From NCBI GenBank assembly GCA_009797885.1, contig WNKP01000017.1:1-64000 (forward strand): a stretch of 64,000 nt of DNA. The letters are read 5' to 3'. Numbering within the stretch: position 1 is the first letter of the stretch; each line of letters opens with the position of its first letter. Below, piece by piece: positions 4,035 through 42,596 of this stretch. The translations under genes were made by a program, and so were the position numbers. The notes below the pieces were generated by a model. It had not been told where the DNA came from. It saw only the letters and a list, made by a program, of their open reading frames with translations, and made no database searches. The stretch comes from Flavobacteriaceae bacterium GF1. GTDB lineage: Bacteria; Bacteroidota; Bacteroidia; Flavobacteriales; Flavobacteriaceae.

Positions 4035-4099
4035 TATTAATAACAATCATATGGGGGAACTATCCAAAAATCAGTGCTGAACCCTATTAAAATTGGGAT
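4035..4099 (-). promoter_or_regulatory. Direct-repeat operator plus promoter, copy A
   Basis: In gene sense GTCCC is represented by ATCCC, with CACT exactly 18 nt later (core 4073-4099), followed by TTTTTG as a -33-like box and an AT-rich -7-like region about 19 nt further. It is one of a set with identical spacing; it serves the LRR gene ending at 452. Confidence 0.6.
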
Positions 4100-4426
4100 A
4101 TAATAGGGTACTTTGGGGATTTTAAAAAAAGGAATCGAATGCGATAAAAGTGCCCACTTTTTTTAAAACAGGAATCAAAAACGGTCAGTGCCCAGACCAA
4201 GGGAAGACAAACGATGTCCAAAAAATATACCTTCCATGTCGAAACCCTTGAATGGCCCATCTGGGACAAGTGGGACATGCCGGTTCAATGGTACATTGGA
4301 TATGTTCGACCAATACCGAATCGGGCCAACGCAGCCCCCATAATCACTATGAATCTTTCATGGTCGTTATATTTATTTTGAATGATGTCCGCAAAGTGCA
4401 ATAAAATCCCTATCGTCGACCTGGAT

Positions 4427-4458
4427 ACTGGAACGGGTTCGGCACAGGCCCGTTCCAG
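4427..4458 (-). terminator. Strong hairpin downstream of LRR gene
   Basis: CTGGAACGGG pairs with CCCGTTCCAG around an 11-nt loop. There is no T-tract, so it may stop exonucleases or act with the hairpin at 4505 rather than terminate alone. It lies ~150 nt beyond the stop of the gene at 4608. Confidence 0.4.
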
Positions 4459-4504
4459 GTTCCCATCACAACTGTGTCCATGGGTACAATGGAATCCCGA
4501 AACG

Positions 4505-4536
4505 GACCTGCCCACCTGCGGTATCACGGGCAGGTC
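4505..4536 (-). terminator. 3' hairpin shared by two type A LRR genes
   Basis: A 9-bp stem GACCTGCCC/GGGCAGGTC with a 14-nt loop, ~70 nt after the stop at 4608. The same hairpin and flank recur after the LRR gene at 25970 (25861-25890), so the 3' untranslated region was copied together with the sorting domain. Confidence 0.5.
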
Positions 4537-4607
4537 AGGAATGGCGCAGAGCCATCAGTATCCTACACTACAAAGTGGACGATCACTGTTTGTCGTGGCG
4601 GTGCGGT

Positions 4608-7600
4608 CTATTTTACAAGTATCCGCTTGACCACCCTCTCCCCAGCCCTGGTCTCTATTTCCAATATATATGTACCGCTGGGCAAATGGCCTATATCCAC
4701 TTGCAGGGTGTTCGCCGAATGGACATGGACCCCCAGGGCATTATATATCTTCACTTGCCGTAACGCTTCACCATCAGGTAGTCCAATGTGGATGTCATCT
4801 TGTGCCGGGTTCGGGTAGACGCTGACATTGTTGCGCGCATTAGCTTTGGCACCATGGGCAGGTGCCACCGCACTTTCTACAGGGGATGCTTCAGCAGCAC
4901 TGGTACCCTGTACCACGGCACTCTTTCCGGCCATCGCGGCTTCCGTAATGGACTTAAAGCCCGTCCATCCTGCAGCCAAGTATGCATTTTTCCTGCCTAC
5001 GGGCACTATCAAGTCTATTTGGGAGCGGTCTGCATTGTAAAAGGCATCTACATGGAGCGATGGGGGATCGATGGCCTTTACCTCCACTGAGGTAAGGTCC
5101 GGGTTATATGCAAAAGCCCACACCCCAATACTTTCCACATTGCCCGGTATGGTCACACTGGTCAAGTCGTTATTCAGAAAAGCATGTTCCCCGATACTGG
5201 TCACAGTGTTTGGTATGGTCACCTCGGTCAATTGGTTAGCACTAAAAACCCCATGCCCAATACGGGTCAGACTGTTGGATATGGTCACCTCGGTCAATTG
5301 GTTACTACCAAAAGCCGAATCCCCAATACTGGTCACACTGTTCGGTATGGTAACCGCTGTTAAATAGGCTCTGGAAAAAGCACCCTCCCCGATACTGGTG
5401 ACACTGTTCGGTATGGTTACACTGGTCAATTGATTAGCATGAAAAGCCCAATTCCCAATACGGGTCACTGTGAAGCACCCTTTGACCATTTTGGGAATGT
5501 TTACAGTGTTGGATGTACCCGTATAGTCTATGGTCATTACCGTGTAGGGCTCCAATGATGTGATCTGGTATGTGATACCGCCATCGGTAAAGGTACCTCC
5601 TACTTTGGCCTCCGTAATGGATCTGAAGCCCGTCCACCCTGCGGCTAGATAAGCACCTGTCCTACCTTCAGGTACTATCAAGTCTATTTGGTCACGGTCT
5701 GCATTTTGAAAGGCACCTGCATGGAGCGCTGGGGGATCGGTGGCCTTTGTCGCCACTCCGGCAAGGTCCGGGTTATTTCCAAAAGCGCTGTCCCCAATAC
5801 TGTTGACACTGTTGGGTATGGTTACACAGGTCAATTGGTTGTTCATAAAAGCAAAATCCCCAATACTGGTGACATTGTTCCCTATAATCACCTCGGTTAA
5901 ATCGTTAGCCGAAAAAGTACTGTTCCCGATACTGGTCACACTATCGGGGATGGTCACACTGGTCAAGTCGTTTTCGCTAAAAACACTACTCTCAATACTA
6001 GTTATATTGCTCGGTAGGGTCACCTCGGTCAAATCGTTAAGGAAAAAAGCATATTCCCCTATACTGGTCACACTGTCGGGTAGGGTCACCTCGGTCAATT
6101 CGTTGTTCATAAAAGCATATTCCCCGATACTGGTGACACTGTTCCCTATGGTCACCTCGGTTAAATTGTTATATGTAAAAGCCCATTCCCCAATACTTCT
6201 CACACTGCCCGGTATGGTCGCACGGGTCAATTCGTTATGCGCAAAAGCCCTGCCTCCAATACTGATGACACCGTTCCCTATGGTCACCTCTGTTAAATTG
6301 TTGGAGAAAAAAGCATGTTCCCCGATACTGGTCACACTGCCCGGTATGGTCACCTCGGTCAATTCGTTGTTCCAAAAAGCATAATTCCCAATACTGATCA
6401 CCGTATTGGGGATGGTCACACCGGTCAATCCTTTTTCTTCAAAGGCTTCGTTACCAATAGCCGTCACCGTGTAGCACCCTTTGACCATTTCGGGAATGTT
6501 TACATTGGTGGCCGTACCCGTATAGTCTATGGCCGTTACCGTGGAGGGATCCAATGATGTAATTCGGTATATGATGCCACCATCGGCAAAGGTCTCCCCT
6601 TCTTCGGGTTCTGTAATGGATCTGAAGCCCGTCCACCCCGCGGCCAGATATGCGTCTTTGGTGCACGAGGGGACTATCAGGTCTATTTGGTGACGGCCTG
6701 GATATTGAAAGGCACCTGCATGGAGCGATGGGGGAACGGTGGCCTTTGTGATCACTGTGGCAAGGTCTGGATTATCTGCAAAAGCGATGTCCCCAATACT
6801 TTTGACACTGCCCGGTATGGTCACCTCGGTCAATTCGTTGGTCGAAAAAGCACCACTCCCAATACGGGTCACATTGTTTCCTATGGTTACACTGGTCAAT
6901 TGGTTACCGTAAAAAGCAGAACTCCCAATACTGGTTACACTGTTCGGTATGGTTACACTGGTCAAGTGGTTTTTTACAAAAGCATAATCACCAATAGTGG
7001 TCACCGTGTAGGTGTTTGGGCCATGGGCCACCGTTGGAGGGATGGTCACCACTGTTACCGGACTGATATAGTCCAATACCATTACTTCGGATGAAGAGAT
7101 AATTCCGTATTTGATGCCATCCACGGTAAAGATTCCGGAGCTGATGGATTTGAAGCCCGTCCACCCATTATCCAAATACCCTTGTCTCTTGTCCATGGGA
7201 ACGACCACAGCAGTTTGGTCACGGTCTCCAAAGGTATTTTCTTCAATGGATGGAGGCGTGGTCGCCTCTACAAAAATTGTATGAATACTTGAGCTACCGT
7301 TAAAAGCCCATTGATCAATACGCTCCACATTGGCCGATATGATTATCGTAATCAATTTGTTTTGTGAAAAAGCACTGTTCCCTATACTGGTCACCCCATC
7401 GGGTATGGTCACACTGGTCAATTCATTATTCTTGAAAACACCTTCCTCGAGTCTGGTCATATTGCCCAGTAGGGTCACCTCGGTCAATTTATTTCCTTGA
7501 AAGGCATCTCGGCCCATACTGGTCACAGTGTTTGGAATGGTCACCTGGGTCAATTGGTTCCCGAGAAAAGCCTGCACTCCAATACTGGTCAAACCATCGG

Positions 7601-8639
7601 GTATGATTACACTGCCCAATTGGTTCTTGCCAAATGCCCGTTGCCCAATACTGGTAACACTGCCGGGTATGGTCACCTCGGTCAATTTGTTGTTCCAAAA
7701 AGCTCTGTCTCCAATACTGGTCACGCCATCGGGTATGGTCACGCCGGTCAAGCTCTTGTCTTTAAAAGCCTCATTGCCAATAGCGGTCACCGTATAGGTG
7801 GTATTTGTGCTATTATCCATTACCGTTTCGGTGATGGTGACCTCCGTGGCCGTACCGGTATGGTCCATCACCATGATTTCGGTAGGAGACGTAATTCCAT
7901 ATTTGATGTCATCAACGGTAAAGATTCCGTAGCTGATACTCACAAAACCAAAGTACTCCTTCCAGCCAGCATCTTCATAAGCTTTTATAGCGGTAAAGGG
8001 CACCACAAGGTCCATTTTTCGGAAGTGCGGTCCGCTTGGAGTATCAAAGGCTGTTTCATGAATTTCTGGTGGTGGATTGCGCTCACACCTCACAATGGGA
8101 ATGTTTTCGAGTCCATAAAAGGCCTGGTACCCAATATATTCCACATTGGCCGGTATGGTCAGCTCTTTTAGAACGTTTTGGGCAAAGGTCCATTGCTCAA
8201 TTCTGGTGACACCATTCGGTATGGTCACTTCGGTCAACTTGTTACTTCCAAAAGCCCGTTGCCCGAGACTGGTCACACTTTCCGGAATGACAATACTGGT
8301 CAATTGGTTCTTATAAAATGCATCTTCCCCAATGCTGGTGACCTTGCTTGGCGTGCTCGGCGTATTGAAGAAAGTGACCTTGGTCAATTGTTTATTATGA
8401 AAAGCCCTATCACCAATGGCGGTCACATCGTAATCGGTGCCGTAGTGGCTGATTGTTGGGAGTATGGTCACCTCTGTGGACGTACCGGTATGGTCCATCA
8501 CCATGACATCGGTCTGAGAGGTGATTTCGTATTTGATGCCATCAACGGTAAATTGGCCTCCTATATTTTGGCCATAAGCGGTAAGGATTGCCAATACCAT
8601 AAAGATCGTAGACGTTATTAATTGTAATTTTTTTTTCAT
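4608..8639 (-). CDS. BspA-like leucine-rich repeat surface protein, T9SS type A
   Basis: A 1343-residue secreted protein. Its signal peptide is MKKKLQLITSTIFMVLAILTAYGQ. Five clusters hold about 30 LRR_5 repeats ([21 protein letters not shown]). Each cluster is preceded by a 'G(I/T)F-VDGIKYGITS...DYTGT' cap and closed by a 'DLIVP...AYLAAGWTGF-SI' cap, so the whole protein looks like repeated duplication of one cap-LRR-cap unit. A linker of alanine-rich sequence (~1235-1270) leads to a T9SS type A sorting domain ([16 protein letters not shown]; ends VVKRILVK). The sorting domain is nearly identical to that of the protein at 25970. A surface adhesin or matrix role is an inference from the family. 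The 69-nt periodicity of its DNA leaves long open antisense frames, which are shadows. Confidence 0.95.
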   Translation of the reverse strand: MKKKLQLITSTIFMVLAILTAYGQNIGGQFTVDGIKYEITSQTDVMVMDHTGTSTEVTILPTISHYGTDYDVTAIGDRAFHNKQLTKVTFFNTPSTPSKVTSIGEDAFYKNQLTSIVIPESVTSLGQRAFGSNKLTEVTIPNGVTRIEQWTFAQNVLKELTIPANVEYIGYQAFYGLENIPIVRCERNPPPEIHETAFDTPSGPHFRKMDLVVPFTAIKAYEDAGWKEYFGFVSISYGIFTVDDIKYGITSPTEIMVMDHTGTATEVTITETVMDNSTNTTYTVTAIGNEAFKDKSLTGVTIPDGVTSIGDRAFWNNKLTEVTIPGSVTSIGQRAFGKNQLGSVIIPDGLTSIGVQAFLGNQLTQVTIPNTVTSMGRDAFQGNKLTEVTLLGNMTRLEEGVFKNNELTSVTIPDGVTSIGNSAFSQNKLITIIISANVERIDQWAFNGSSSIHTIFVEATTPPSIEENTFGDRDQTAVVVPMDKRQGYLDNGWTGFKSISSGIFTVDGIKYGIISSSEVMVLDYISPVTVVTIPPTVAHGPNTYTVTTIGDYAFVKNHLTSVTIPNSVTSIGSSAFYGNQLTSVTIGNNVTRIGSGAFSTNELTEVTIPGSVKSIGDIAFADNPDLATVITKATVPPSLHAGAFQYPGRHQIDLIVPSCTKDAYLAAGWTGFRSITEPEEGETFADGGIIYRITSLDPSTVTAIDYTGTATNVNIPEMVKGCYTVTAIGNEAFEEKGLTGVTIPNTVISIGNYAFWNNELTEVTIPGSVTSIGEHAFFSNNLTEVTIGNGVISIGGRAFAHNELTRATIPGSVRSIGEWAFTYNNLTEVTIGNSVTSIGEYAFMNNELTEVTLPDSVTSIGEYAFFLNDLTEVTLPSNITSIESSVFSENDLTSVTIPDSVTSIGNSTFSANDLTEVIIGNNVTSIGDFAFMNNQLTCVTIPNSVNSIGDSAFGNNPDLAGVATKATDPPALHAGAFQNADRDQIDLIVPEGRTGAYLAAGWTGFRSITEAKVGGTFTDGGITYQITSLEPYTVMTIDYTGTSNTVNIPKMVKGCFTVTRIGNWAFHANQLTSVTIPNSVTSIGEGAFSRAYLTAVTIPNSVTSIGDSAFGSNQLTEVTISNSLTRIGHGVFSANQLTEVTIPNTVTSIGEHAFLNNDLTSVTIPGNVESIGVWAFAYNPDLTSVEVKAIDPPSLHVDAFYNADRSQIDLIVPVGRKNAYLAAGWTGFKSITEAAMAGKSAVVQGTSAAEASPVESAVAPAHGAKANARNNVSVYPNPAQDDIHIGLPDGEALRQVKIYNALGVHVHSANTLQVDIGHLPSGTYILEIETRAGERVVKRILVK

Positions 8640-8659: not shown

Positions 8660-8739
8660 ATAAATATTAATTCAAAGCAAAAAATACCATACGAGGGAAA
8701 TATCCAATAATTGGTGCTGAACCCTATTAAAATTGGGAT
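8660..8739 (-). promoter_or_regulatory. Direct-repeat operator plus promoter, copy B
   Basis: Core 8713-8739: ATCCC, 18 nt, CACC in gene sense, then TTATTG, 18 nt, TATTTTTTG, a good match to the Bacteroidota -33 TTG / -7 TAnnTTTG promoter. It drives the LRR gene starting at 8639. Confidence 0.6.
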
Positions 8740-8852
8740 ACCACAAGGTGTTTTAGGGATTTTAAAAAAAGGATCAAGAGAAGTCAAGGAAGGACCAATG
8801 CTGCCCAAAAAATATGTCTTTTTATGCCCCTATCACTTTTAATGACCTATCT

Positions 8853-8879
8853 GTCCCAGTTTTAACCCATATGGACACA
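8853..8879 (+). promoter_or_regulatory. Direct-repeat operator, plus-strand copy
   Basis: GTCCC, exactly 18 nt, CACA, read on the plus strand and pointing to the barrel gene at 9044. The following ~60 nt ('GGTCTTGTGCTAAAG', then CACTTTTG) resemble the sequence after the plus copy at 9969. Confidence 0.55.
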
Positions 8880-9043
8880 TTTTATAGTTTGGTCTTGTGC
8901 TAAAGCCCCACTTTTGCCCCCGATAAAAATTTATCCAACATAATCAAAGTTAGAATGATGGCGTGGTCTTAAATCCATGGCTATTTCCGGGGTATTGTTG
9001 GTCATTTACCAAATTTTATAAAATCAATATTTAAACCATTATT

Positions 9044-9619
9044 ATGAAAAAAAGTTTTTTTATCGTTGTGGCCATTATGGGTATGGCTCAATTTACACAG
9101 GCGCAGGAACAGCATAAATTTAGAGCGGGCCTTGACTTGGGATATGCCGTCCCTGACGGTGGTGGTGGGATTCTCGGTGCCATTGAGTTTAAGTACAATA
9201 TCATGGACAATATGAATATTGGAATTCTTTTTGAAAGTGCTGTATTGGCAAAAAATATTACGACTGATGCGGCTTCCCTGGAGCTGGAGACTGAGTTAGG
9301 TAGCAACGCATCATATGCGGCAACTTTTGATTATTATTTTAACAATGGTGGTTCTTCATTTGCTCCATTTATTGGGGGTGGTATGGGTTATAACGCCTTG
9401 GCCAATCTTGAATTGGATTTCTTGGGGGAAACTACTGAAGCAGAGGTTGATGGTAAATTTGGCGGACTTGTCCGTGCAGGTTTTGAGCTTGGAAAATTAC
9501 GATTGGCCGCAACTTACCATCTTATTGGGAAATCCGAAATTGGAGAATCAGAAGTAAATAACTCCTACTTTGGTCTCTCCTTAGGTTTCTATCTCGGCGG
9601 AGGTAAATGGAAAAAATAG
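9044..9619 (+). CDS. Small outer-membrane beta-barrel protein
   Basis: A 191-residue protein with a clear signal peptide (MKKSFFIVVAIMGMAQFTQAQ). The remainder alternates short amphipathic strands and turns typical of an 8-stranded barrel (OmpX/OMP_b-brl-like); it begins 'FRAGLDLGYAVPDGGGG' and closes with the aromatic strand 'NNSYFGLSLGFYLGGG'. It should lie in the outer membrane. No catalytic motif is visible, so its role is unknown. It is the only plus-strand gene within the left array, is preceded by its own plus-oriented operator copy (8853) and followed by a good terminator, so it is probably monocistronic. Confidence 0.85.
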   Translation: MKKSFFIVVAIMGMAQFTQAQEQHKFRAGLDLGYAVPDGGGGILGAIEFKYNIMDNMNIGILFESAVLAKNITTDAASLELETELGSNASYAATFDYYFNNGGSSFAPFIGGGMGYNALANLELDFLGETTEAEVDGKFGGLVRAGFELGKLRLAATYHLIGKSEIGESEVNNSYFGLSLGFYLGGGKWKK

Positions 9620-9683: not shown

Positions 9684-9968
9684 GTTTCCTGAAAGTGGTG
9701 GCAACAAATCAATGGCAAACAGGATTTTGACCCCATAAATCCATCACGGTGGCTTCATCCTCTTTACTTCTTTAACATCGATTCTGTTAAGGGAAGAACC
9801 ATGCAATCCGCATTTATCGCTAAAAAAATCAACCCTGATCGTTTCCCATTGAAACCAATACTGATTCCATATTCCCATAAATTTCAGATTCATCCGTATC
9901 GAGTCTTACCAATACTCTACCCCAAAAACAATGCTTTGAGCGAACTAAACCCTTTTAATGCATTACTC

Positions 9969-10195
9969 GTCCCGGTTTTCACCGATATCGGCACATTTTA
10001 TCGTCCGGTCTTGTACTAAAACTTCACCTTTGTTTCCAATTAGAAGGACTAACCAACAAAATTTGGGCAATGGAATAATCGTGTGGGTTAAATCGACCAT
10101 TGACTTTATAGGGTAAAGCTTTTTAAGTTATTGCATGTTAAGTTAGTTCAGTGAGACGGCGGGGATTTGAAACAGTGTTCCCCGTCGTTTTTTTT
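9969..10195 (+). ncRNA. Candidate small transcript: operator, leader, terminator
   Basis: GTCCC, 18 nt, CACA at 9969-9995 matches the array operator on the plus strand. It is followed by GGTCTTGTACTAAA and a -7-like CACCTTTG (10025-10032). No reading frame of note follows. The unit ends at 10155-10195 in a stem ACGGCGGGGA/TCCCCGTCGT followed by eight T, a convincing intrinsic terminator. Thus a transcript of roughly 150 nt without coding potential is predicted. Its stem resembles the hairpin at the end of the repeats at 13.4, 18.75 and 21.1 kb. The rest of 9690-10359 shows no gene; a weak frame near 10217 was rejected. Confidence 0.45.
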
Positions 10196-10359: not shown

Positions 10360-12321
10360 TTAGTTATGCTTTAATACAACGTGGCCCTTGAGCACATTTT
10401 GGCCAATTTCTATGCGGTACCAATAGCTTGAAGCGGGCAGTGGACGGTTATTGAAAACACCGTCCCAGGAAAAGTTTTTGTCAGTGGATTGGAACAAGGG
10501 CTTTGAGGTACGATCAAAGATGCTGATTTTAAAAGCATCGACAAACTCCACTCCTTCCAGACTGAAACTATCATTGATACCATCCCCGTTCGGAGTGAAA
10601 AAGCGCGGGACGACAATATGGACAAACTGCAATTGTACTAAGCCGCAACCACCTTTCCCTCTTACAAAAGCGTTATAAACACCCCCCTGCTGGTTTTCAA
10701 AGAGGGATGTTTCCTGATAAGCAAGACCATCCAGGGAATATTCAAAATCACCTGAATTGAGGGTAAGAATCGTCAAATCCCGATGATCCGACACTACCTT
10801 ATCCAGTATCGGATGGTCAATTTGTGAAAGTTGAATCGTTTTGGTGGTTGAACATCCATTTCCTTTGGTGACAGCAACAGTATAGGTACCAGGGGAAGTT
10901 ACCACGATTTCCTTGGTCGTTTCCCCGGTGCTCCACAAATAGGAAGCATTGGTCACATCATCTCCTGATAACGTAACAGACTGTCCTTCGCAGAATGTCA
11001 AACTTTCGTGCGAGGACAAATCAAGATAAACAATGGAAACTGCGGTTCGTGTATTGGAACTACAATTTGTTGTTTTGCTCACTGCCTCCGCATAATACGT
11101 TCCTGAAATTGTTGTGGCGTATAGCTCGGAATCCCCTGCCAACAGGTTGCCCCCAGTAGGTGCATCATACCAATTGACCAGGACATCATTCGGAACCGAA
11201 ACCTGAACGCCTCTGGGATTATCCACGCAGAGTTCTACATCTCCTTGGCTTACGGGCGCATCCGGAATAGCAACAATAGTTACATCAAAAACATTCGAAA
11301 AAACACTACATCTTAAATTTGCCAGATTAATGGCATCCTCGGCAACCTTTACCCTATAGAAAGTAGCGGTATTGAGTTGGGGTGTTGTGAAAATAGGAGT
11401 GGTTTCACCAACAAGATCGTTCCAAGTTGTTCCATCCGCACTTTCCTGCCATTGATAGGCATGGGTTTTGAACGTGGAAAAATCAGGATGGGCGGTCAAA
11501 GTCGGTGTAATCGGTGCTTGACTTTCACAAACCGTAATGGAAGTGCTGTTGGTGCTGTCCGTAAGTAAAACAGTATCACCGCAACTTTTGAATACGATGT
11601 CGTCAATGCCAACATCATTGCCACACCCCCCAACACCATTGTTTCGCATTTTTAAAATGACGGAGGTTTGACCCGGCAACGTCCGGAATACCAGGGCATA
11701 TTGCTCCCAAGTGGGGGAAGCCTTGGCAAAAATATCGCCGGTATCACCAGTCGCCAATAACTGCGTGTCCGTATTGTCCCATACTTCAAACTTTAAATTC
11801 ACCGGGATGCCTCCTTGTAGCCCACAGCCAGTGCTTGTGCCCGACACCAGGTTCATTATCCATGAGGAAAATTCATAAGAGGTGTTTTCACAAAGCCCGC
11901 TCACTGTACGTCGAAAAAATTCCCCAGGCGTAACGCTTGCATTTACGATAAGTAATTTTCCATTGGTGTCGCCTGTATGGTCCGTGGTATCGAACCACAC
12001 TTGGTAATAATCGGTTCGACTCGAAATCGTATAAGTCCCATCGGGCGGCGCACCGTCCACATAAGGATAAGTTGTAGTGCCGGGAGGTAGTGGAGGCCCA
12101 TTTTCGGTGCCCGTACCAAAGGTTTCCGTAAAAATGGCATCGCCATAATTACCGCTGCAAAAACCCAATTGCGCATTCGACCCTTGAAAAAAAAAGACCA
12201 AATAAAACCAGAAAAAAGAGTGGATTACGTTCGCGTTCTTTTGGGAAAATTTGCCTCGTATAGTACTATATTGGTATAAATTTAATATTGTTTCATTAAA
12301 TTTTAGACGAAACCTACCCAT
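10360..12321 (-). CDS. Secreted jellyroll/Ig-like protein, T9SS type B
   Basis: From the start at 12321 (MGRFRLKF) the protein has 653 residues; an upstream in-frame ATG at 12408 would read through the operator and is less likely. A hydrophobic segment ending 'FFFQGSNAQ' (~residues 38-50) serves as signal peptide. A jellyroll-like domain common in Flavobacteriia follows ('NGKLLIVNASVTPGEFFRRT', 'LCENTSYEFSSWI'). Next come Ig-like domains including 'LTFCEGQSVTLSGDD...YLWSTGETT', and a gliding-motility-associated type B sorting domain at the C-terminus ('RFFTPNGDGINDSF', end 'KGHVVLKHN'). Export by T9SS and surface attachment are expected. The operator core ends only 24 nt before the chosen start, so the transcript would be nearly leaderless or the true start may be a non-ATG codon further in. 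Confidence 0.85.
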   Translation of the reverse strand: MGRFRLKFNETILNLYQYSTIRGKFSQKNANVIHSFFWFYLVFFFQGSNAQLGFCSGNYGDAIFTETFGTGTENGPPLPPGTTTYPYVDGAPPDGTYTISSRTDYYQVWFDTTDHTGDTNGKLLIVNASVTPGEFFRRTVSGLCENTSYEFSSWIMNLVSGTSTGCGLQGGIPVNLKFEVWDNTDTQLLATGDTGDIFAKASPTWEQYALVFRTLPGQTSVILKMRNNGVGGCGNDVGIDDIVFKSCGDTVLLTDSTNSTSITVCESQAPITPTLTAHPDFSTFKTHAYQWQESADGTTWNDLVGETTPIFTTPQLNTATFYRVKVAEDAINLANLRCSVFSNVFDVTIVAIPDAPVSQGDVELCVDNPRGVQVSVPNDVLVNWYDAPTGGNLLAGDSELYATTISGTYYAEAVSKTTNCSSNTRTAVSIVYLDLSSHESLTFCEGQSVTLSGDDVTNASYLWSTGETTKEIVVTSPGTYTVAVTKGNGCSTTKTIQLSQIDHPILDKVVSDHRDLTILTLNSGDFEYSLDGLAYQETSLFENQQGGVYNAFVRGKGGCGLVQLQFVHIVVPRFFTPNGDGINDSFSLEGVEFVDAFKISIFDRTSKPLFQSTDKNFSWDGVFNNRPLPASSYWYRIEIGQNVLKGHVVLKHN

Positions 12322-12344
12322 TACGCGAAAAATATCCCATAAAA

Positions 12345-12371
12345 AGTGCTGAGATCCAGTAAAGCTGGGAC
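12345..12371 (-). promoter_or_regulatory. Direct-repeat operator, copy C
   Basis: Gene-sense GTCCC, 18 nt, CACT, followed by TTTTTATG. It lies immediately upstream of the gene at 10360-12321. Confidence 0.55.
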
Positions 12372-12473
12372 GTAAAAAGAGCGTATTGGGATTTTGGACG
12401 AACACCATTGCCCCAACCTTTTTGCTAGCCTTTGCTAATGAGCTTTACAGGTGGCACCTAGCGTAAAACGGTC

Positions 12474-13118
12474 TTAATCCTTTTCCATTTCCTCCATCAT
12501 CCGGTCAAAAGTGGTGATCCTGCTGTAAAGCTTTCCCCCCAAACTAATTATGGGGCTGGACAAAGCATCCATCTCTTGGGTAGATCTGGACAAAAATTGG
12601 CCCAACTGTTCCTTTACTTTGGGGTTCTCGTCCAGGGAAACGCTTCTAAAGATGAAATTTTGGGAATTGAGTTGATTTACAATGCTATCGCAGGCGTCAC
12701 AGCCCCTGGATGTGTAGATGGTAATCTGTTTCCTTGGCCTGATCTTGGGTGGTGGGATATCCAATACCTCGAATTCCTTTTTCAACGCCCGTTTGGATAA
12801 ACTGTCATTGGTCTTTAGTGTTTTGGTGTAGATCGGTCGTTTGTCCCGAAGTAAAACAATGGTCTTTAAATGGACCCTGGATGCTGCGGGAACCCTGATC
12901 CATCTAGGTTTTGCGGCACTCTGTCTAAAATTGGTACCCTTTACCTCAAATAGCACATCATAGTCCCTAAATGTCCTGTTCTCGGCAAAAAAAGCGATCC
13001 GGTTCTTGGATTTGGTCTCGGTCACCATGACCGTTCCCCTCTGGGTCCAAGCAAAGGTCGTCATAAAACAGAGCAAAAGGGTCAGCGCTGTACGCATGAA
13101 ATGTTGATCAGTTCCCAC
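12474..13118 (-). CDS. Exported glutaredoxin/thioredoxin-fold protein
   Basis: A 214-residue protein with an N-terminal hydrophobic signal (RTALTLLLCFMTTFAWTQ). Residues ~25-105 form an unrecognised beta-rich domain. From ~130 comes a glutaredoxin-like domain: 'KQITIYTSRGCDACDSI' contains the redox pair C-D-A-C, and 'SPIISLGGKLYS' supplies the cis-proline loop. It would act as a thiol oxidoreductase in the periplasm. It overlaps the 70-residue gene upstream by 11 nt. Both have paralogues at 16205 and 17551, so the pair was duplicated. An alternative start is M8 (13097). Confidence 0.75.
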   Translation of the reverse strand: MGTDQHFMRTALTLLLCFMTTFAWTQRGTVMVTETKSKNRIAFFAENRTFRDYDVLFEVKGTNFRQSAAKPRWIRVPAASRVHLKTIVLLRDKRPIYTKTLKTNDSLSKRALKKEFEVLDIPPPKIRPRKQITIYTSRGCDACDSIVNQLNSQNFIFRSVSLDENPKVKEQLGQFLSRSTQEMDALSSPIISLGGKLYSRITTFDRMMEEMEKD

Positions 13119-13364: not shown

Positions 13365-13680
13365 CGATGACACGGTCAACGCCCGTCGCCTTAAAATTGG
13401 TCGTCCCTCCAGGTCAGGGGAAGTTTCCATAACGACGGGGGACCTTGGAAACCAAGTCCCCGTCGTCTAACCTCAAATATGGAAAAACCAACTTCGAAAA
13501 TGAAAAAGGCCCTCGAAGGTTAACACGTTGCACAGCCAATCCTAATGAAAACCAATCCCATACTTAAGAAGTTGTATCAGGCAAATCTTAATTTTTAACC
13601 TCATACCATACCAAAAAAAGTGTTGGAACCCGTAAAATTGGGGACGAGGAAGACAGTTGGTGGGACAATGGAAATCTCCA
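13365..13680 (-). repeat. Structured ~250-nt repeat, copy D (operator, leader, hairpin)
   Basis: In gene sense the unit starts with an operator core (13619-13645; GTCCC, 18 nt, CACT), continues with a -33-like TTTTTTTGG and a -7-like AAGATTTG, and after about 150 nt reaches a hairpin (13432-13467; CGACGGGGAC pairing with GTCCCCGTCG) directly followed by 'TTATGGAAAC'. Copies lie at 18741-18990 and 21060-21360. A shorter relic of the part after the hairpin is at 13740-13820. The rest of 13321-13890 shows no gene. Confidence 0.65.
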
Positions 13681-16144: not shown

Positions 16145-16204
16145 TGTAAATTGATATACTTAGCATTTTTTGTTTTACAAGTAGCGCCACGGCGCAAAAC
16201 GGCC

Positions 16205-18702: not shown

Positions 18703-18740
18703 ATCACTGTATTTGTTATCCATTACGCTGTTAAGGATTG

Positions 18741-18990
18741 TTTTCATAACAACGGGGACCTTGGAAACCACGTCCCCGTCGTCTTAACCTCACATATGGA
18801 AAAACCAACTTAAAAAATGGAAAAGGCCTCCGAGGGTCAACCCTATGACACAGTCACTCCCACTGAAAACCAATCCCATTTAAGAAGATTACCTGAAGTA
18901 AAGCTCAATTTTAACACGATTCCATGCCAAAAAAAGTGTTGGAGTCCTTAAAATTCGGGACGAGAAAGGGAATTGGTGGGACAATGGAAA
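18741..18990 (-). repeat. Structured ~250-nt repeat, copy E (operator, leader, hairpin)
   Basis: Operator core at 18935-18961 (GTCCC, 18 nt, CACT). The hairpin at 18750-18783 keeps its stem although one base differs (G-U replaces a G-C pair of copy D). It is directly followed by 'TTATGAAAAC', an in-frame start for the barrel gene. Here the unit clearly forms the 5' untranslated region of a gene. Confidence 0.65.
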
Positions 18991-19008
18991 TCTCCGTACG
19001 AGGATGAG

Positions 19009-21059: not shown

Positions 21060-21360
21060 GCCATCATATCCCGGACAATGCCCTTTACGTAAAACCTGTC
21101 CCTACAGGTCAGTGGAAGTTTTCATAACGGCGGGGACTTTGCGGATCAAGTCCCCGTCGTCGTTTGAACCCCACATAAAAAAACAACCTGGAAAATGAAA
21201 AGTCTTCAAAGGGCAACCATTGGCACAGTCACTGCCGTGAAAACCGGTTCCATTACTAAAGATTGCTTCTGGCAAATCTTGATTTTTAACATGATACCAT
21301 ACCACAAAAAGTGTTGGAGCCCGTAAAATTGAGGATGAAAAAGTGAATTGGAGGGATAAT
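21060..21360 (-). repeat. Structured ~250-nt repeat, copy F (operator, leader, hairpin)
   Basis: Operator core 21310-21336 with a weaker first half, then a TTG box and -7-like AAGATTTG identical to copy D. The hairpin at 21128-21161 is followed by 'TTATGAAAAC' and a frame that stops after MKTSTDL. Unlike copy E, no intact gene follows within 200 nt. The stretch 21361-21878 contains no convincing gene. Confidence 0.6.
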
Positions 21361-21878
21361 GAAAATCCATTTTTGAACTTTTTGCCGATAGTAAAGACAT
21401 TTCATCAAAAATTACCCCACCCCCCTTGAGAAAGGTCCCATAGATGGTCAAGCCCTTTTTCAATATCGTTGAACTGGAAACAATTCGACCTGAGGAAGAG
21501 TTGTTCTATTTCAACAATGTCACGAAACCCTATGCAACACCTACTTACAGCTTCACTTCCTTTCTCTTTAAATCACTCCAATAAAAACAATAAGTTGATT
21601 TATATATCCGCATCTATTTTGCGCTCTACCCCTCCTGACATCAATTGCTGTAGCTGATAGCTTGATATGTCCTAAATAATTGTTTTTTTCCTGTCCATTA
21701 TCCATTTCATTTTTACCCTAAACATTTTTCGATTAAAAACAAGAGGTCTGCTGAAACATCACGCAGCTTGTTATCCTCTTGCCCCTTCCCTTTTTCCCGC
21801 CGGTCAAAATCCTGGATCCACGATTTTTGAAAGGACCTCTTTGTTTTCTCTTATTATCATATTGGAGAAGCATATAAA

Positions 21879-25285: not shown

Positions 25286-25423
25286 AAAAATGGCGAATAC
25301 TAGCAGTTGTAATTGCCTCTTTATTTGAACGGTTTTTTTATTTTGAATATTAATAAGAGGTAAATAATAACCATACAAGGGCAGTATCCAACAATTAGTG
25401 CCCAACCCCTTTAAAATTGGGAT
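25286..25423 (-). pseudogene. Orphan head of a surface-protein gene: operator, promoter, mutated signal start
   Basis: In gene sense an operator core (25397-25423; ATCCC, 18 nt, CACT), a TTG box and a -7-like TATTATTT lead to a frame reading I-K-R-Q-L-Q-L-L-V-F-A-I-F (25321 down to 25286). Intact neighbours begin M-K-K-Q-L-Q-L-I-L-x-x-I-F, so the start ATG has become ATA and the signal peptide then breaks down. The promoter may now serve the protease gene at 21879. Confidence 0.6.
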
Positions 25424-25481
25424 GTAAAAGGGTGTTTTTGGGGACAAAGGGAATCCAGCGATTCCCTTTGGTAGTCCGTTT

Positions 25482-28324: not shown

Positions 28325-28393
28325 GCATTCAAAAAATGTCCATACAAGGGAAATATTCAAAAATCAGTGCTGAAACCAATTAAAGAAGGGACA
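28325..28393 (-). promoter_or_regulatory. Direct-repeat operator plus promoter, copy H
   Basis: Core 28367-28393: GTCCC, 18 nt, CACT in gene sense, then TTTTTG, ~19 nt, CATTTTTTG. It drives the LRR gene starting at 28303. Confidence 0.65.
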
Positions 28394-28487
28394 TAACCAA
28401 GTGTTTTAGGGATTTTTAAAAAAAGGAATCAAATACGGTTTTGTGGGCTACTTTATATATGTATACAGACCTTCAGACCCATTTTTG

Positions 28488-32224: not shown

Positions 32225-32289
32225 TTCAAAAGAATAATAGACAAAGAGAGCATCCAACAATCAGTGTTAAAACCTGTTAAAAAAGGGAC
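32225..32289 (-). promoter_or_regulatory. Direct-repeat operator plus promoter, copy I
   Basis: Core 32263-32289: GTCCC, 18 nt, CACT in gene sense; TTGTTG follows as -33 and an AT-rich -7 region lies within the next 25 nt. It serves the gene starting at 32200. Confidence 0.65.
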
Positions 32290-32458
32290 GTAACAGGGTG
32301 TTTTTGGGATTTTAAAGGAAGGAATCGAATGCCGTTTTGTGGTGCTGCCTTTACCATATGACCACGTACACAGACCTTCAAACCTATCTTTACTTTACCC
32401 ATAAAAGTGCCCACATTTTTTAAAACAGGGGTCAAGAAAGACCAAGCAAGGACAAACG

Positions 32459-36787: not shown

Positions 36788-36856
36788 TTAGAACAAATAA
36801 TGACCGAACAGAGAAAGCATCCAATAATTAGTGCCGAACCTTATTAAAAAAGGGAT
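36788..36856 (-). promoter_or_regulatory. Direct-repeat operator plus promoter, copy J
   Basis: Core 36830-36856: ATCCC, 18 nt, CACT in gene sense; TTATTG, ~19 nt, CATTATTTG follow. It drives the LRR gene starting at 36763. Confidence 0.65.
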
Positions 36857-37024
36857 AAAATAGGGGGCTTCTGGGGATAAGAGGAATCCAGTACTTGACC
36901 TATTCATTGGAAAACGGTTCAACAATACTGGAGGAAAACGACTTGAAAACCAATAAATTGGGAAGGGAGCTTGACATCCAAGCCCTTAATTTGGAATAAA
37001 GCAATTTTTGGAACAACAACGGAA

Positions 37025-38280: not shown

Positions 38281-38316
38281 TTTTACGATTAATGGTTTTT
38301 TGGTGGTGGTGCCTTA

Positions 38317-38448
38317 CTACGATAATAAAGTAGTCCTAACCAGTATGATTACACCGAACAGAATGGTACTTATCTGTGCAAGCACTATAGCATACAAGAC
38401 GAAATGCACTACTTTTAGCTTCATCTGTTTTTGCAAAACTTTGAACAT
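38317..38448 (-). CDS. 43-residue single-span membrane protein
   Basis: The frame MFKVLQKQMKLKVVHFVLYA continues with a hydrophobic stretch to 'FGVIILVRTTLLS'. A basic N-terminus followed by one membrane span fits a small inner-membrane protein. It lies 36 nt upstream of the barrel gene at 37699 on the same strand. No family is recognised; confidence rests on length, composition and position only. The remaining gap to 38665 shows nothing else. Confidence 0.4.
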   Translation of the reverse strand: MFKVLQKQMKLKVVHFVLYAIVLAQISTILFGVIILVRTTLLS

Positions 38449-38665
38449 GTTTATTGGGATGTGATTTTTTTCACTGCTCCTGTGTATTGGCTTTTGTTCG
38501 GCCCTTAAATATTAGATGGTATATAGGCTGCCCATTAACTAAAATCAGCCCTGAACTTTTTCAAATCCATCCGTCAAGAACGATTTGACAAGAACATTTT
38601 GTTAAACAGGGCAGCCCTATACGCTAACTAAACAAAAAACTAACTACAAACCTTTAAAACTCTCT

Positions 38666-39745
38666 TTATATCTGGGTCCATTTATTGGAGCTCTTTTTAA
38701 ATCGGTACATGCGCAGGAAGTTTATGGTCGGTACGTTCATGCCTCTTTTCGCAAAGGCTCCCATAAGGGTAAGGGTACCATCATTGCCCAAACTCATATT
38801 GTTGAACCCTGATAGATCGGCCCCCATTGTCCTGCCATCGATATCCGCTCCCAGTCGTATCCATGTGTTGGCCCTATTTTGATAGGTTCGGACATACGCG
38901 TACCTTTTTCCTTTATCACTGTTATATGCTGCTATGGCCACAGAATTACCGTTATTGGACAGGCTTATGTTCCATCCTGCGAAATTTCCCGTCGGTTCCC
39001 CAACAATATCCTTCCCTATTTGCACCCAACGTCCCGATACATTTTTATAGACACTTACATAGCCAGATGATGCCCCTCCCTGATGTGCCCCTATTGCCAA
39101 AGTTTTGCCGTTACCGGATAAACTGACGCTTGCCCCGAAATAGTCTTTTGCCGCTTTACCATTGATATCAGCACCTATCTGAATCCATTTTCCTGAATCG
39201 TTTTTGTATACACGTACATGCCCTGAATGTTTGCCATTGCCACTGTTGAGCACAGCTCCAATAGCCACCGTGGTGCCATCGCCGGACAGGTCCACACTAT
39301 AGCCCGAACCATCTCCCTGCGCCTCGCCATCGATATCCCCACCTATTTGCTCCCAAACGCCGGCATTATTTTTATACACCCGTACATGCCCCGAATTTAT
39401 GCCGTTTCGCCCATGGTTGCGCCTGGCTCCAACAGCCACTGTGGTACCATCACCCGACAGGCCCACACTATAGCCCGACCAATCCCTTGCTGCTTCCCCA
39501 TGGATAACATCCCCTATTTGGTTCCAAATGCCGGAGCTGTTTTTGTATACGCCTACGCAACCTGATTTAATACCATCATTATCGCCCTGGTGGTTTCCTA
39601 TGGCCAAGGTCATAACATCATCTGATAAACTCACGCTATAGGCTGACAAGTCAACGAACGGTTTGTTGGCGGTCTCAGCTATTTGGGCCTGGGCATAAAT
39701 GACAGCACTCAATATGAAGGCCATGGACATATATCGCGTGGGCAT
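38666..39745 (-). CDS. Secreted beta-propeller protein lacking a sorting domain
   Basis: A 359-residue protein; signal peptide MPTRYMSMAFILSAVIYAQAQ. Six to seven blades repeat 'SVSLSGDGTTVAIGA...SGHVRVYKN-SG-W-QIG-DI-GEA'. It matches the N-terminal propeller of 29318 but stops after the last blade ('NKWTQI') without any type A or B sorting domain; no such domain is found in the other frames just downstream. It is therefore either periplasmic or a truncated former T9SS cargo. It has an operator copy ~60 nt upstream. Confidence 0.85.
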   Translation of the reverse strand: MPTRYMSMAFILSAVIYAQAQIAETANKPFVDLSAYSVSLSDDVMTLAIGNHQGDNDGIKSGCVGVYKNSSGIWNQIGDVIHGEAARDWSGYSVGLSGDGTTVAVGARRNHGRNGINSGHVRVYKNNAGVWEQIGGDIDGEAQGDGSGYSVDLSGDGTTVAIGAVLNSGNGKHSGHVRVYKNDSGKWIQIGADINGKAAKDYFGASVSLSGNGKTLAIGAHQGGASSGYVSVYKNVSGRWVQIGKDIVGEPTGNFAGWNISLSNNGNSVAIAAYNSDKGKRYAYVRTYQNRANTWIRLGADIDGRTMGADLSGFNNMSLGNDGTLTLMGAFAKRGMNVPTINFLRMYRFKKSSNKWTQI

Positions 39746-39807
39746 TTTTGATTAGGTTTTTATTTCACGGACGAATATTGAACCTATTCCATGCGCAGCC
39801 ATAAAAA

Positions 39808-39834
39808 TGTGTCGAAATCGCTTGAATTGGGGAC
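39808..39834 (-). promoter_or_regulatory. Direct-repeat operator, copy K
   Basis: GTCCC, 18 nt, CACA in gene sense, then TTTTTATGG; 63 nt upstream of the propeller gene start at 39745. Confidence 0.55.
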
Positions 39835-40147
39835 TAAACATTGATTATTGGGGACCAATCTAAATGGGGGTTTTTGAATAACTTATGAAAATTCGTCGGG
39901 TCATCATAGAACGGCCACCCGAACCGTAAAGGGACTAAAAATGCCTTCGCCCGTTGTGGAAAAAGAAAGTTCGGCATATCAAAATTGGAATGACGGCACA
40001 ATATCTACTATTATGGAAGATAAATTGAACAATCGGTGCGTTGCCGCTATAACCATATAAAAAAAGGAAAGGGTAATCACGGCATGGGTACGGTTTCAGA
40101 ATAAAAACCACGCAAGGCATCATATACCGATTCTTGTGTTGATGCCA

Positions 40148-40756
40148 TCAGTTCCACGATGATGAATAATCGCCATCTTTGAACATCTCCCCAAGCCCTT
40201 TGAACTGCTTTAAGCGCAGCACTTCATCTGCATCCATTCCCAACGCATCCATTATTTTCGAAGGGGACCATCCGTTTGTGGACAAAATCTTTACCACCTC
40301 GCTTATTTCCCCGATTTGATGCCGCCCCCGGGCCCTATTGTGCCTAATAGTGGCCACTATACGATCATTATTGGGCAGGTCCAATACGACTACCGGGACT
40401 TTACGTCCCAATCTTTTCAGCAATTCCTTGTTTTTTTTGATAAGTCTCCAGCGATGATAACCGTCTATCAGGGTATAATGCTGTTCCTTCTCCGCACAGA
40501 CCAGTAGGGGCATGGTAATTCCGTGATCGATCAGGGAACGAAGCAACAACCGCTTTTCCGGAGCGGCCATTTTATTGGGATTGTACGAATTGGGCAACAG
40601 GGTATTTATAGGTACCCATAGCACTTGGGAAACCGGTTCTTTGTATTGGCCAAATACGGCTATAATGCTATTTACCAGTTCCATTTTCTTTTCTTCGGGA
40701 ATACCACGGGTTTCCTTTAAAATATCCAAGATGTCCTGTTTTATACTTTTTTTCAT
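40148..40756 (-). CDS. ibrB: ParB-fold protein, IbrB-like
   Basis: From MKKSIKQDILDILKE (40756) the protein has 202 residues; a longer frame to 40954 only overlaps the upstream gene. A ParB/sulfiredoxin-type domain is visible at ~45-135: 'VPINTLLPNSYNPNKM', 'GITMPLLV', and the box 'LIDGYHRWR' (G-x-x-R). A helical DNA-binding-like region follows (~150-200). Its ATG overlaps the stop of the PAPS-reductase-family gene (ATGA), so the two are translationally coupled. This pair matches the IbrA/IbrB arrangement described in E. coli and in mobile elements, where IbrAB affects expression of surface immunoglobulin-binding proteins. It is not a chromosome-partition ParB, as no parA is adjacent. Confidence 0.8.
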   Translation of the reverse strand: MKKSIKQDILDILKETRGIPEEKKMELVNSIIAVFGQYKEPVSQVLWVPINTLLPNSYNPNKMAAPEKRLLLRSLIDHGITMPLLVCAEKEQHYTLIDGYHRWRLIKKNKELLKRLGRKVPVVVLDLPNNDRIVATIRHNRARGRHQIGEISEVVKILSTNGWSPSKIMDALGMDADEVLRLKQFKGLGEMFKDGDYSSSWN

Positions 40757-41934
40757 GATGCGGTCTTTTCCTTGACATATAAGGTTTCGTAGGTTTTCTT
40801 GGTTCTGGTAAAGCCCAGGCTGCGACACCACCAATCGTTTTTGATGATACATTTGCATATCCTTCTCCAGGAGGGGAGTTTCCCTGCATTTTCCAACTTT
40901 AAATTGCCTTGGTCCGGAATGAGGTCGGAAGGAAAGCCGTTGTTTTCCCACCACTTGAGAAAGGTCTCTATTTTACTGGTATAATGAGTCCTCGTAATTT
41001 CCGGCATGGAACGCAATAGGATATACGTATATTTTTTCCATGTGAGTCCCTCTGGCAAGACTACCTTGATCCTACCAAGAACGGCGGTCTTACTGTAAAC
41101 GGCCCCAAAATTGACCCCATGGACCCGGGCCACTACCTTGCTCCAGGTTTCGGGTTCGATTTCGTGAAAATAAGCCAAGCTTTGGCGTTGGTCCTCCCCA
41201 TAGGGTTGACAGATACGCATTTTATGAATGGAGATTCCGCATAGATAAAAATAATCGTACAGTTTATTGTACCGTATTTTTTGCTTGCCCACATACCGCC
41301 ATATATCTTCAGTACGCCAATCATAAATGGGATAGGAAAACACCAAATCTTCCGAAGCTTTGCTCATCCAGTTTTCCCCGCCCCAACCGTTGGCGGTTAC
41401 CGAAAAGAACCGGTTCAGGCTCTCATCGGATCGAATGCCCAACATGCAGGAGCATAGCTCACCATCGGAAAACCAATTGCCCCACTGGTATACAAAATCC
41501 TCGAACTCCATTCCATAGTGGAAAAAGGGGTAATACTCAATATCGGATATTACCTGTGGGTGTTTGGGCATGGGGCGAATCCATCTTTCGGATTCTTGAG
41601 GGTCCCAGCAGCGCCAATGGGGCTGGAACACACTGACCGAATTTCGGAGGTTCAGGGGAAGGCAAATCCAGTGCAGGTTTATTTTTTCCGTGCGGAGTGC
41701 AACCTCCTCAATGTGCCTTATCGTGGTATCGTATTGTCCCTCCAGATCAACGAACAATACATCGAGTGGCAGCCTGTTCTCCAATTCCGCCACCTGTAGG
41801 GCCAAATGCAACATGACCGTACTATCCTTACCTCCACTAAAAGCCAAATACACCTTTGGGAAAATATCAAATATGTCCTGCATACGGTTTAAGGCGGCGT
41901 TAAGCACATCTTCATCCAAATAATTTTTGGGCAT
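40753..41934 (-). CDS. ibrA: PAPS-reductase-family protein with DUF3440, IbrA-like
   Basis: A 393-residue cytoplasmic protein. The N-terminal PP-loop 'VYLAFSGGKDSTVML' (SGGxDS) marks an ATP pyrophosphatase of the PAPS reductase family. 'LFVDLEGQYDTTIRHIE' and a Cys-containing 'GELCSCMLGIRSDES' follow, and the C-terminal half with 'MRICQPYGEDQRQSL' corresponds to DUF3440. The length is close to that of E. coli IbrA. The exact reaction is unknown for the family; adenylation or thiolation of a substrate is inferred from the fold. It is the first gene of the pair with the ParB-fold gene. A long hairpin lies ~200 nt upstream. It stands between the surface-protein array and the metabolic island. 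Confidence 0.85.
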   Translation of the reverse strand: MPKNYLDEDVLNAALNRMQDIFDIFPKVYLAFSGGKDSTVMLHLALQVAELENRLPLDVLFVDLEGQYDTTIRHIEEVALRTEKINLHWICLPLNLRNSVSVFQPHWRCWDPQESERWIRPMPKHPQVISDIEYYPFFHYGMEFEDFVYQWGNWFSDGELCSCMLGIRSDESLNRFFSVTANGWGGENWMSKASEDLVFSYPIYDWRTEDIWRYVGKQKIRYNKLYDYFYLCGISIHKMRICQPYGEDQRQSLAYFHEIEPETWSKVVARVHGVNFGAVYSKTAVLGRIKVVLPEGLTWKKYTYILLRSMPEITRTHYTSKIETFLKWWENNGFPSDLIPDQGNLKLENAGKLPSWRRICKCIIKNDWWCRSLGFTRTKKTYETLYVKEKTAS

Positions 41935-42130
41935 TTTTAAAATTTATTGGTTTATTGAAAAAACGGTGATGCATTTTTTTGTGTCCAAAAACATAGCATG
42001 ACCTTTGGATATTAAAGTCACTTTACTCAGCACTAGATATACCCATAAAAATTGAATAACTACTTCTTAAAGCTTCTTTTGATTTTTGCCATTTAAATCT
42101 TTAATTGTGATACAGCCTTTTTTATGGGAC

Positions 42131-42195
42131 GCTACCCTGCCCTTAGGGACGATGATCGATGAACACTACTAATGCTAACCTAAGGCAGGGTACGG
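42131..42195 (-). other. Long hairpin upstream of ibrA-like gene
   Basis: TACCCTGCCCTTAGG pairs with CCTAAGGCAGGGTA (one bulge) around a ~31-nt loop. It separates the 41-residue protein gene from the ibrA-like gene and could terminate the first or regulate the second. Confidence 0.5.
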
Positions 42196-42335
42196 CCCAA
42201 AAGACTTACTACTATCGACTTTTTTCTTTACCATATGCTCCACCCATAGTCAAGGTCAGGGGTTCTTGCTGCGCTGACAAAGTGGTGCGGCCTCGACCGT
42301 ATATTTGGAAAACCTGAAAAGATAATACCCGCGTA

Positions 42336-42461
42336 TTACATATCTTCAAAAATCCTTATGCCCAGTTTTATCAAAAAGTAAGCTGTAACCGCCAAAAGAA
42401 TCAGGTAAAAAACTATCGCTCTCTGTAAATTCCCCTTGGTATTTTTATTGTCTGCATTCAT
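42336..42461 (-). CDS. 41-residue single-span membrane protein
   Basis: The frame reads MNADNKNTKGNLQRAIVFYL, continues hydrophobic to 'AYFLIKLGIRIFEDM' and stops. A polar N-terminus, one clear membrane span and a short charged tail are visible. An operator-type sequence (copy L) lies ~110 nt upstream in the correct orientation, supporting a real gene. Family unknown. Confidence 0.55.
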   Translation of the reverse strand: MNADNKNTKGNLQRAIVFYLILLAVTAYFLIKLGIRIFEDM

Positions 42462-42569
42462 GAACTAGATATTCTAATTTAAAATCGTATTTGTACCGTA
42501 GCCCAATCCATTTTTTAAAGCTAATCCTGCATCGAAGAAAGGTAATTCGTACATAGGTTTTAAGTAAAA

Positions 42570-42596
42570 AGTGTTGAAACCGATAAAAAATGGGAC
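42570..42596 (-). promoter_or_regulatory. Direct-repeat operator, copy L
   Basis: GTCCC, 18 nt, CACT in gene sense, then TTTTTAC. This is the only copy outside the surface-protein array; the next gene in its direction is the 41-residue membrane protein. Confidence 0.5.

Follow-up and report, generated by a model that had tools for sequence, protein, structure and literature searches.

Which protein reads a direct-repeat element that recurs with fixed spacing in front of genes for exported proteins in Flavobacteriaceae bacterium GF1? The question is raised by a stretch of 64,000 nt of contig WNKP01000017.1 (the window), in which a reading of the letters alone, the original prediction, had listed 14 copies of the core GTCCC or ATCCC, 18 nt, CAC. 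It described them as two halves 22 bp apart, lying upstream of almost every secreted-protein gene, and proposed a LytTR-type activator of cargo genes of the type IX secretion system (T9SS). To our knowledge, little is known about the control of T9SS-exported surface proteins in marine Flavobacteriaceae. The results presented here revise the anatomy of the element and suggest that it is likely to be the operator-promoter of a self-contained regulon, read by a LytTR protein that is encoded outside of the window at C7:106841-107593. In the following, G000 denotes the genome of GF1, G002 and G007 are congeners, and G280 belongs to another genus (g20) of the same family.

Three tandem repeats with a 21-bp period

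Read in gene sense, all 14 listed sites were present in the window, and the pattern RTCCC-N18-CAC was exact in 13 of them, with ATCCT at site 21310. The 64 kb contain 20 matches to this pattern, compared with a mean of 4.53 (largest 10) in 100 shuffles, and the seven unlisted matches are about the number expected by chance. With a sequence-only profile built from the 14 sites (R1), these scored from 47.9 to 66.5 bits and the next-best match in the window 11.7 bits. The evidence for the element is stronger than had been claimed.

The arrangement as two halves did not hold. A gapless alignment revealed three tandem copies, TCCC at positions -20 to -17, TCCC at 1 to 4 and RCAC at 22 to 25, and the conserved TT at 8-9 and TT at 29-30 obey the same step. 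In the window, the upstream copy has CCC at -19 to -17 in 13 of the 14 sites and an in-register exact TCCC in ten; its variants are TCCCC at 25423 and 36856, ATCAC at 8853 and AACCC at 9969. The period is 21 bp: in 41 non-redundant sites the self-match had z = 11.6 at lag 21, compared with 5.2 at lag 22, with lower peaks at 10-11, and 56 non-redundant sites from other genomes gave z = 13.3 and z = 6.5, respectively. Near-identical sites were removed before both lag tests and before a second profile (R2) was built from 48 sites; the G002 sites 4312888 and 4313552, in which the third copy is replaced, were left out of the logo, of R2 and of the 41-site test. The sites from other genomes were drawn from 79 (81 matches minus two L144 duplicates, L170:7662 and L173:11433, plus two weak matches). 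Among the 56, CAC at 23 occurred in 54, TCCC at 1 in 46 and TCCC at -20 in 36, counts that lean upward because the recognition score rewards those same letters.

Downstream of the third copy (59 sites), T29 and T30 were invariant (100%), followed by T32 (92%), G34 (93%) and T60 (98%). The conservation of T32 and G34 fits a strong -33-like TTG against the end of the third copy, as predicted. The predicted -7-like box was weak: the flavobacterial sigma-A box TAnnTTTG (PMC9723704) scored at least 5/6 in 20 of the 41 sites, compared with 27% of shuffles, and 6/6 in none of the 41, compared with 2%.

In 16 orthologous site pairs of G000 and G002, 0 of 256 repeat letters were changed, a footprint that is partly a product of site recognition itself, compared with 114 of 1520 other letters between -45 and +65 (in the rest of the element 41 of 656, in the upstream flank 37 of 384 and in the downstream flank 36 of 480). 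These data bear on a simple explanation of the similarity, namely that duplicated promoter DNA was carried along with paralogous genes and no special regulator is involved. Near-copy promoters indeed exist, as a 104-nt family of six in the window and as an RHS group in G000, G002 and G007. However, the same letters and spacing are found before unrelated genes and, with different flanks, in other genera, the 21-bp period persists in both non-redundant sets, and between orthologues it is the repeat letters that remain unchanged. We give this explanation next to no credence.

No Rfam family reached the gathering score in a scan of the window. The window has no tRNA or tmRNA gene, and inverted repeats of at least 60 nt, the lengths covered by the search, were absent from 1-43500; thus, nothing points to an attC-like or tRNA-linked recombination site. 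A description of the element was not found in a literature search in which subscription journals were thinly covered.

Two further observations concern the arrangement of the elements. Divergent pairs, 115-230 bp apart, are frequent, with one element apparently driving an LRR (leucine-rich repeat) gene and the other the RNA-type transcript described below: window 8739(-)/8853(+), G000:C33:166027(-)/166177(+), G002:394249(-)/394363(+) and L148:15828(-)/16094(+). At G002:418896 (stretches L085/L087) the upstream flank is that of window site 36856, and from the first repeats onward the sequence is that of the promoter at G002:383072; the promoters at G002:383072 and 418896 look like hybrids, as if the repeats had served for recombination that swapped genes. 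The sites G002:4312888 and 4313552 (L091) differ in their left parts and share a new right part that replaces the third copy.

Co-occurrence of the element with one LytTR protein

With R2, 23 matches at an expectation value (E) of at most 0.01 were found in G000, 14 of them in the window cluster and the others on C7, C33, C59, C61, C22 and C62. Among 60 relatives, including GF1 itself, three had matches at E <= 0.001 (G000 22, G002 40 and G007 1). When 150 candidates were scored in each of 13 genomes, the counts were 23 in G000, 41 in G002, one in G007 and five in G280, with single weak matches near E 0.006 in G001 and G005 and none in seven. Across 397 genomes of the family, with ten candidates scored per genome, R2 matches were confined to G000 and G280, and in the genus of G280 six of 12 genomes had sites at E <= 1e-4 (4, 6, 12, 20, 5 and 15). 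Altogether, each of the eight wholly searched genomes with more than one site has 4 to 41 sites; Flavivirga jejuensis, Algibacter lectus and Aquimarina spongiae are named carriers.

The distribution of the candidate LytTR protein follows that of the sites. Its gene lies behind an SprF gene that has a site of its own (C7:109068; G002:373789). In G002, which is a single contig, the LytTR gene is at the left end of the cluster and an AraC-family gene at the right end; from this order, the ends of the G000 cluster on contigs C7 and C8 are taken to be neighbours. The protein is 100% identical in G000 and G002, and nine other members of the genus yielded partial matches of at most 37% or none, so that among the genus members searched it occurs solely in the two genomes with 23 and 41 sites. 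At E <= 1e-35, a profile of seven LytTR sequences matched 2 of the 397 family genomes, exactly the two with sites (G000 and G280), a coincidence that rests on six candidates per genome scored for LytTR and ten for sites. In five genomes chosen by their sites alone (G430, G431, G432, G435 and G436), a LytTR orthologue, 59-61% identical to the protein of G000, was found near the sites in 5/5. Conversely, five loci chosen by LytTR alone (Flavivirga jejuensis, Algibacter lectus (L145) and three of Aquimarina) had sites in 5/5, with 20 matches at E <= 1e-4, 18 of these at E <= 1e-10; the underlying profile search of genome contigs gave no loci with one LytTR sequence and five with two aligned. G029, of the genus g20, has neither sites nor the LytTR gene.

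With G432 and F. jejuensis counted once, 12 distinct genomes have both, and in every one of them the LytTR gene has a site upstream. In seven of them (G280, G430, G435, G436, L146, L147 and L148) LytTR is the first gene after the site; in the remaining five it follows a site-bearing SprF gene (G000 and G002) or FG-GAP gene (F. jejuensis, A. lectus and G431). Near the LytTR end of the cluster, a transposase-like gene was recognized by eye (G002:368037-369239, L143).

The AraC-family protein of the right-hand cluster end is a second possible reader. Its gene is also found in G280, Flavivirga, Algibacter and one Aquimarina locus, and the geometry would suit it, as operators of AraC proteins, too, can consist of direct repeats with a step of about 21 bp beside -35 boxes. 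However, close orthologues (E <= 1e-150) are present in 10 of the 397 family genomes, and the eight besides G000 and G280 had no site better than E = 0.004 (150 candidates each). Moreover, the protein was not seen in the fetched stretches of G431, a genome with 12 sites, and no site lies directly upstream of its gene in the window. Reading of the element by this protein is highly improbable.

A third candidate, as reader or as essential co-activator, is a pair of genes for a DUF3440/PAPS reductase and a ParB_N protein, which we take to be IbrAB-like. IbrAB of E. coli is an activator of genes whose products are surface proteins that bind immunoglobulin, and the pair seen here adjoins surface-protein genes, occurs in the site neighbourhoods of G000, G002, G280, G430, G431, G432, G435 (in pieces), G436, L147 and L148, with a fragment in L146, and is preceded by a site in several. 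A search of the 20-kb Algibacter locus L145, however, did not reveal it, and ParB-type sites are usually palindromes; this role is very unlikely. As a side observation, the pair recurs often behind its own site (in the window, at G280:5324872-5326658, and in L147 and L148). Two small HTH proteins (HTH1/HTH2), one of which is a weak LuxR-type match below the cut-off, were rejected as general reader: they are present in 5/5 site-chosen g20 genomes and had no tblastn match in the fetched stretches of G000 and G002, whole genomes not having been searched.

The preferred reader, the LytTR protein, has one domain above the Pfam cut-off (LytTR, PF04397, residues 153-239, E 3.7e-13), with no other domain at E <= 0.001. 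In a profile comparison, residues 4-218 aligned with residues 2-216 of a LytTR response regulator of the same genome (probability 93%, E 3e-7, 21% identity). At the positions of the acidic pair, which we presume from the receiver consensus to belong to the active site, none of the seven orthologues has an acidic residue; Asp54 is kept in 7/7. The N-terminus thus appears to be a degenerate receiver domain, and because the acidic pair is absent, phosphorylation may not be the switch of this protein. An AlphaFold run on the seven sequences was unusable (mean predicted local distance difference test score 33.7), and a profile search of solved structures gave no match at E <= 0.01. In G000, a single-domain receiver and a PAS protein are encoded behind the LytTR gene (L063:3922-4832, minus strand), a possible signal input.

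Taken together, distribution, position and the 21-bp geometry support the part of the prediction that named a LytTR-type reader, and the first two support it well. Several points weigh against this assignment. G000 encodes 34 LytTR-domain proteins, so that the mere presence of some LytTR protein is uninformative. Besides the limits of the 256-letter and 397-genome counts given above, five of the 12 loci, one of them the same as G432, had been located via LytTR itself. The IbrAB-like pair and HTH1/HTH2 were also present in 5/5 site-chosen genomes, so that LytTR is not the sole co-traveller. G007 has one site, before an RHS gene, and no LytTR orthologue; the sequence of this site closely resembles the RHS promoters in G000 and G002, and we infer that the gene arrived recently and that its promoter is an orphan. 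Finally, by eye, the letters of the element do not match what we take to be the LytTR consensus, in agreement with the original prediction; this mismatch is not treated as defining because LytTR sites share no common consensus.

Probable target genes, a putative small RNA and features of the window

The sites are related to gene starts; a scatter without such a relation would have counted against the original prediction. Intergenic positions account for 51 of the 64 sites of G000, G002 and G007, compared with 20% of 5000 positions drawn at random from the same stretches. An intergenic position that is also at most 350 nt upstream of a same-strand open reading frame (ORF) of at least 100 aa was found for 37 of the sites, compared with 5.7% of the random positions; in the window alone, this applies to 9 of 14. 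The ORF caller was crude: several of the other 27 sites lie just within over-extended ORFs (12371, and RHS sites at 188 nt) or have leaders of 475-662 nt.

The claim that almost every secreted-protein gene follows a site is fair within the cluster. The first long gene encodes a T9SS sorting domain for 8 of the 14 window sites; the other six precede genes for a 191-aa exported-looking protein (8853), a small RNA (9969), a glutaredoxin-like protein (13645), a 209-aa protein (18961), an FG-GAP protein (39834) and a 41-aa peptide (42596). The 64 sites yielded 56 first-gene proteins (six sites had no ORF of at least 100 aa within 800 nt, and two genes extended over the locus edge): CHU_C 17, LRR_5 16, Por_Secre_tail 6, RHS 6, DUF285 4, FG-GAP 4, DUF3440 2 and SprF 1. 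In the other genomes, 79 sites yielded 69 distinct proteins (six sites gave none): Por_Secre_tail 17, FG-GAP 10, LRR_5 7, DUF285 7, LytTR 7, CHU_C 5, SprF 2 and DUF3440 2. T9SS sorting domains account for at most 45 of 125 first genes (23 of 56 in the first set, 22 of 69 in the second); these are raw shares, and upper bounds, as two sorting families that may overlap are summed. The targets are mostly exported proteins, and T9SS cargo, which the original prediction took to be the target set, is common among them but does not seem to define it.

Not all targets seem to be protein-coding. Behind some sites, the element is followed by a conserved stretch whose end, at +208 to +219, is formed by a G+C-rich hairpin with a T run, namely at G000 9969 and C33:166027, G002 395453 and 4301413, L147:9209, and L148:9234 and 16121. 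A hairpin with a T run was found behind 8 of 143 sites, L187 (at +141) included, and the same RNA-like stretch follows a weak site in G280. Besides the copy in Table 1, its coordinates are L060:9296-9473 (-), L142:424-601, L147:9264-9441, and L148:9289-9466 and 16176-16353. Covariation was modest, with double changes at 3 of 23 pairs in eight sequences. The putative small RNA matched nothing in Rfam at the gathering score; sroD, with 16.6 bits against a cut-off of 50, was the only match, and was rejected as its identity and taken as chance. A hairpin of similar kind, near +175 and without the T run, occurs in a leader group (13645, 18961, 21336 and five relatives in G002), in which a gene comes next. 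These leaders, in the window at 13413-13590, 18729-18906 and 21104-21281 on the minus strand, may perhaps represent this RNA with transcription continuing into a gene.

Table 1. Elements and associated features in the window.
Feature	Position	Strand	Remark
Element	4039..4130	-	Upstream of LRR/T9SS gene 452-4009
Element	8679..8770	-	Upstream of LRR/T9SS gene 4608-8639; divergent from element 8823..8912
Element	8823..8912	+	Upstream of gene 9044-9619 (191 aa, exported-looking); weak third (upstream) copy ATCAC
Element	9945..10025	+	Upstream of putative small RNA; weak third (upstream) copy AACCC
Putative small RNA	10030..10195	+	Hairpin with T run at end; inferred start
Element	12316..12401	-	Upstream of CHU_C (T9SS) gene 10360-12321
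Element	13588..13675	-	Followed by structured leader and gene 12474-13118 (glutaredoxin-like, exported)
Element	18902..18991	-	Followed by structured leader and gene 18118-18771
Element	21279..21366	-	Followed by structured leader, then CHU_C (T9SS) gene 19009-20868; ATCCT in middle copy
Element	25363..25453	-	Upstream of subtilase/LRR/CHU_C gene 21879-25097; leader 326 nt
Element	28332..28415	-	Upstream of LRR/T9SS gene 25970-28303
Element	32232..32320	-	Upstream of CHU_C gene 29318-32200
Element	36796..36886	-	Upstream of LRR/CHU_C gene 32678-36763
Element	39774..39864	-	Upstream of gene 38666-39745 (FG-GAP, exported)
Element	42539..42627	-	Upstream of 41-aa membrane peptide (by eye); DUF3440/PAPS-reductase gene 662 nt on, then ParB
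IbrAB-like pair (DUF3440/PAPS reductase and ParB_N protein)	40148..41934	-	Behind element 42539..42627
AraC-family regulator	43458..44318	+	Right end of cluster; not supported as reader of the element

Proposed mechanism and known systems

In the mechanism that we propose, the LytTR protein would bind the three tandem direct repeats, which are 21 bp, that is, two helical turns, apart, so that all protein copies would sit on one face of the DNA. As the third copy abuts the -33 box, the protein could touch RNA polymerase there and turn on all of the promoters jointly. The targets would include its own gene or operon, large exported LRR, immunoglobulin-like (Ig) and RHS proteins, many of them T9SS-sorted, PorP/SprF, the IbrAB-like pair and the small RNA. 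The regulator itself is perhaps no ordinary phosphorylated response regulator, and a signal would set its activity.

Whether the effect would be positive is uncertain, and the activator role in the original prediction is kept as a probable one. The end of the third copy touches or overlaps the -33 box, and CoxC, whose three-repeat operator lies over the -35 box, is a repressor (PMC11347149); this nearness would allow the LytTR protein, or another protein bound to the repeats, to repress the genes until released by some signal, and it makes activation uncertain. On the other hand, the weak -7 box fits activator-dependent promoters and argues for activation, and RcoM-1 and most LytTR proteins are described as activators (PMC11347149). 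Repression is, on balance, unlikely, and in our reading the LytTR protein would control, and probably activate, the element-bearing genes.

A broader scenario, which we put forward tentatively, as possible rather than probable, is that of a transferable surface-remodelling programme of Flavobacteriaceae, spread between species as one regulon. It would comprise the LytTR protein with its atypical receiver, the triple-repeat operator, the IbrAB-like pair, SprF, the small RNA and interchangeable giant exported LRR, RHS and Ig proteins. New genes would join via a ready-made promoter of about 93 bp, and recombination in the repeats would swap promoters between genes. In any case, one short, searchable operator and one candidate regulator make the regulon testable, and would connect surface-protein control with a small RNA and with IbrAB-like genes.

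As in the E. coli IbrAB system, IbrAB-like genes are found here beside surface-protein genes; we know of no LytTR protein or triple-repeat operator for E. coli IbrAB. Receivers of the AgrA/YpdB type have the full active site, whereas the acidic pair is missing in the LytTR protein described here. The typical target of a LytTR domain is a pair of short direct repeats, separated by 10-13 nt, for which there is no common consensus (PMC11347149, PMC4847170). The element fits this operator geometry, with a period of 21 compared with the rule of repeats of about 9 nt and a period of about 19-23. AgrA, YpdB and other LytTR response regulators share with the present system direct repeats of 9-11 nt, 11-13 nt between them, a position upstream of the promoter and the lack of a common consensus, but use two repeats instead of three (PMC4227749, PMC4847170).

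Triple repeats have been described for RcoM-1 and CoxC, and efficient binding of CoxC needs all three (PMC11347149). These are the closest parallels: a LytTR domain recognizes three short direct repeats about two turns apart, and the CoxC operator reaches the -35 box (PMC11347149). The repeat letters are different, TTCNNGCA for RcoM-1/CoxC in contrast to TCCC/TCCC/RCAC here, and so are the sensors, a carbon monoxide (CO)-binding heme domain in RcoM-1 and a membrane MHYT domain in CoxC, both of which control CO oxidation genes (PMC11347149). Here, by contrast, a degenerate receiver, a surface-protein regulon and up to about 41 sites per genome are found. T9SS-linked transcriptional control is also known from PorXY-SigP of Porphyromonas gingivalis; however, PorX-SigP controls the secretion machinery via an extracytoplasmic function (ECF) sigma factor (PMC4800418), whereas the targets here are mostly cargo and one SprF, and the regulator is a LytTR protein. 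In summary, the regulon proposed here is new, its operator belongs to a known kind, and its regulator and set of targets are unusual; among three-repeat LytTR operators it would be one more example, very unlike those already described.

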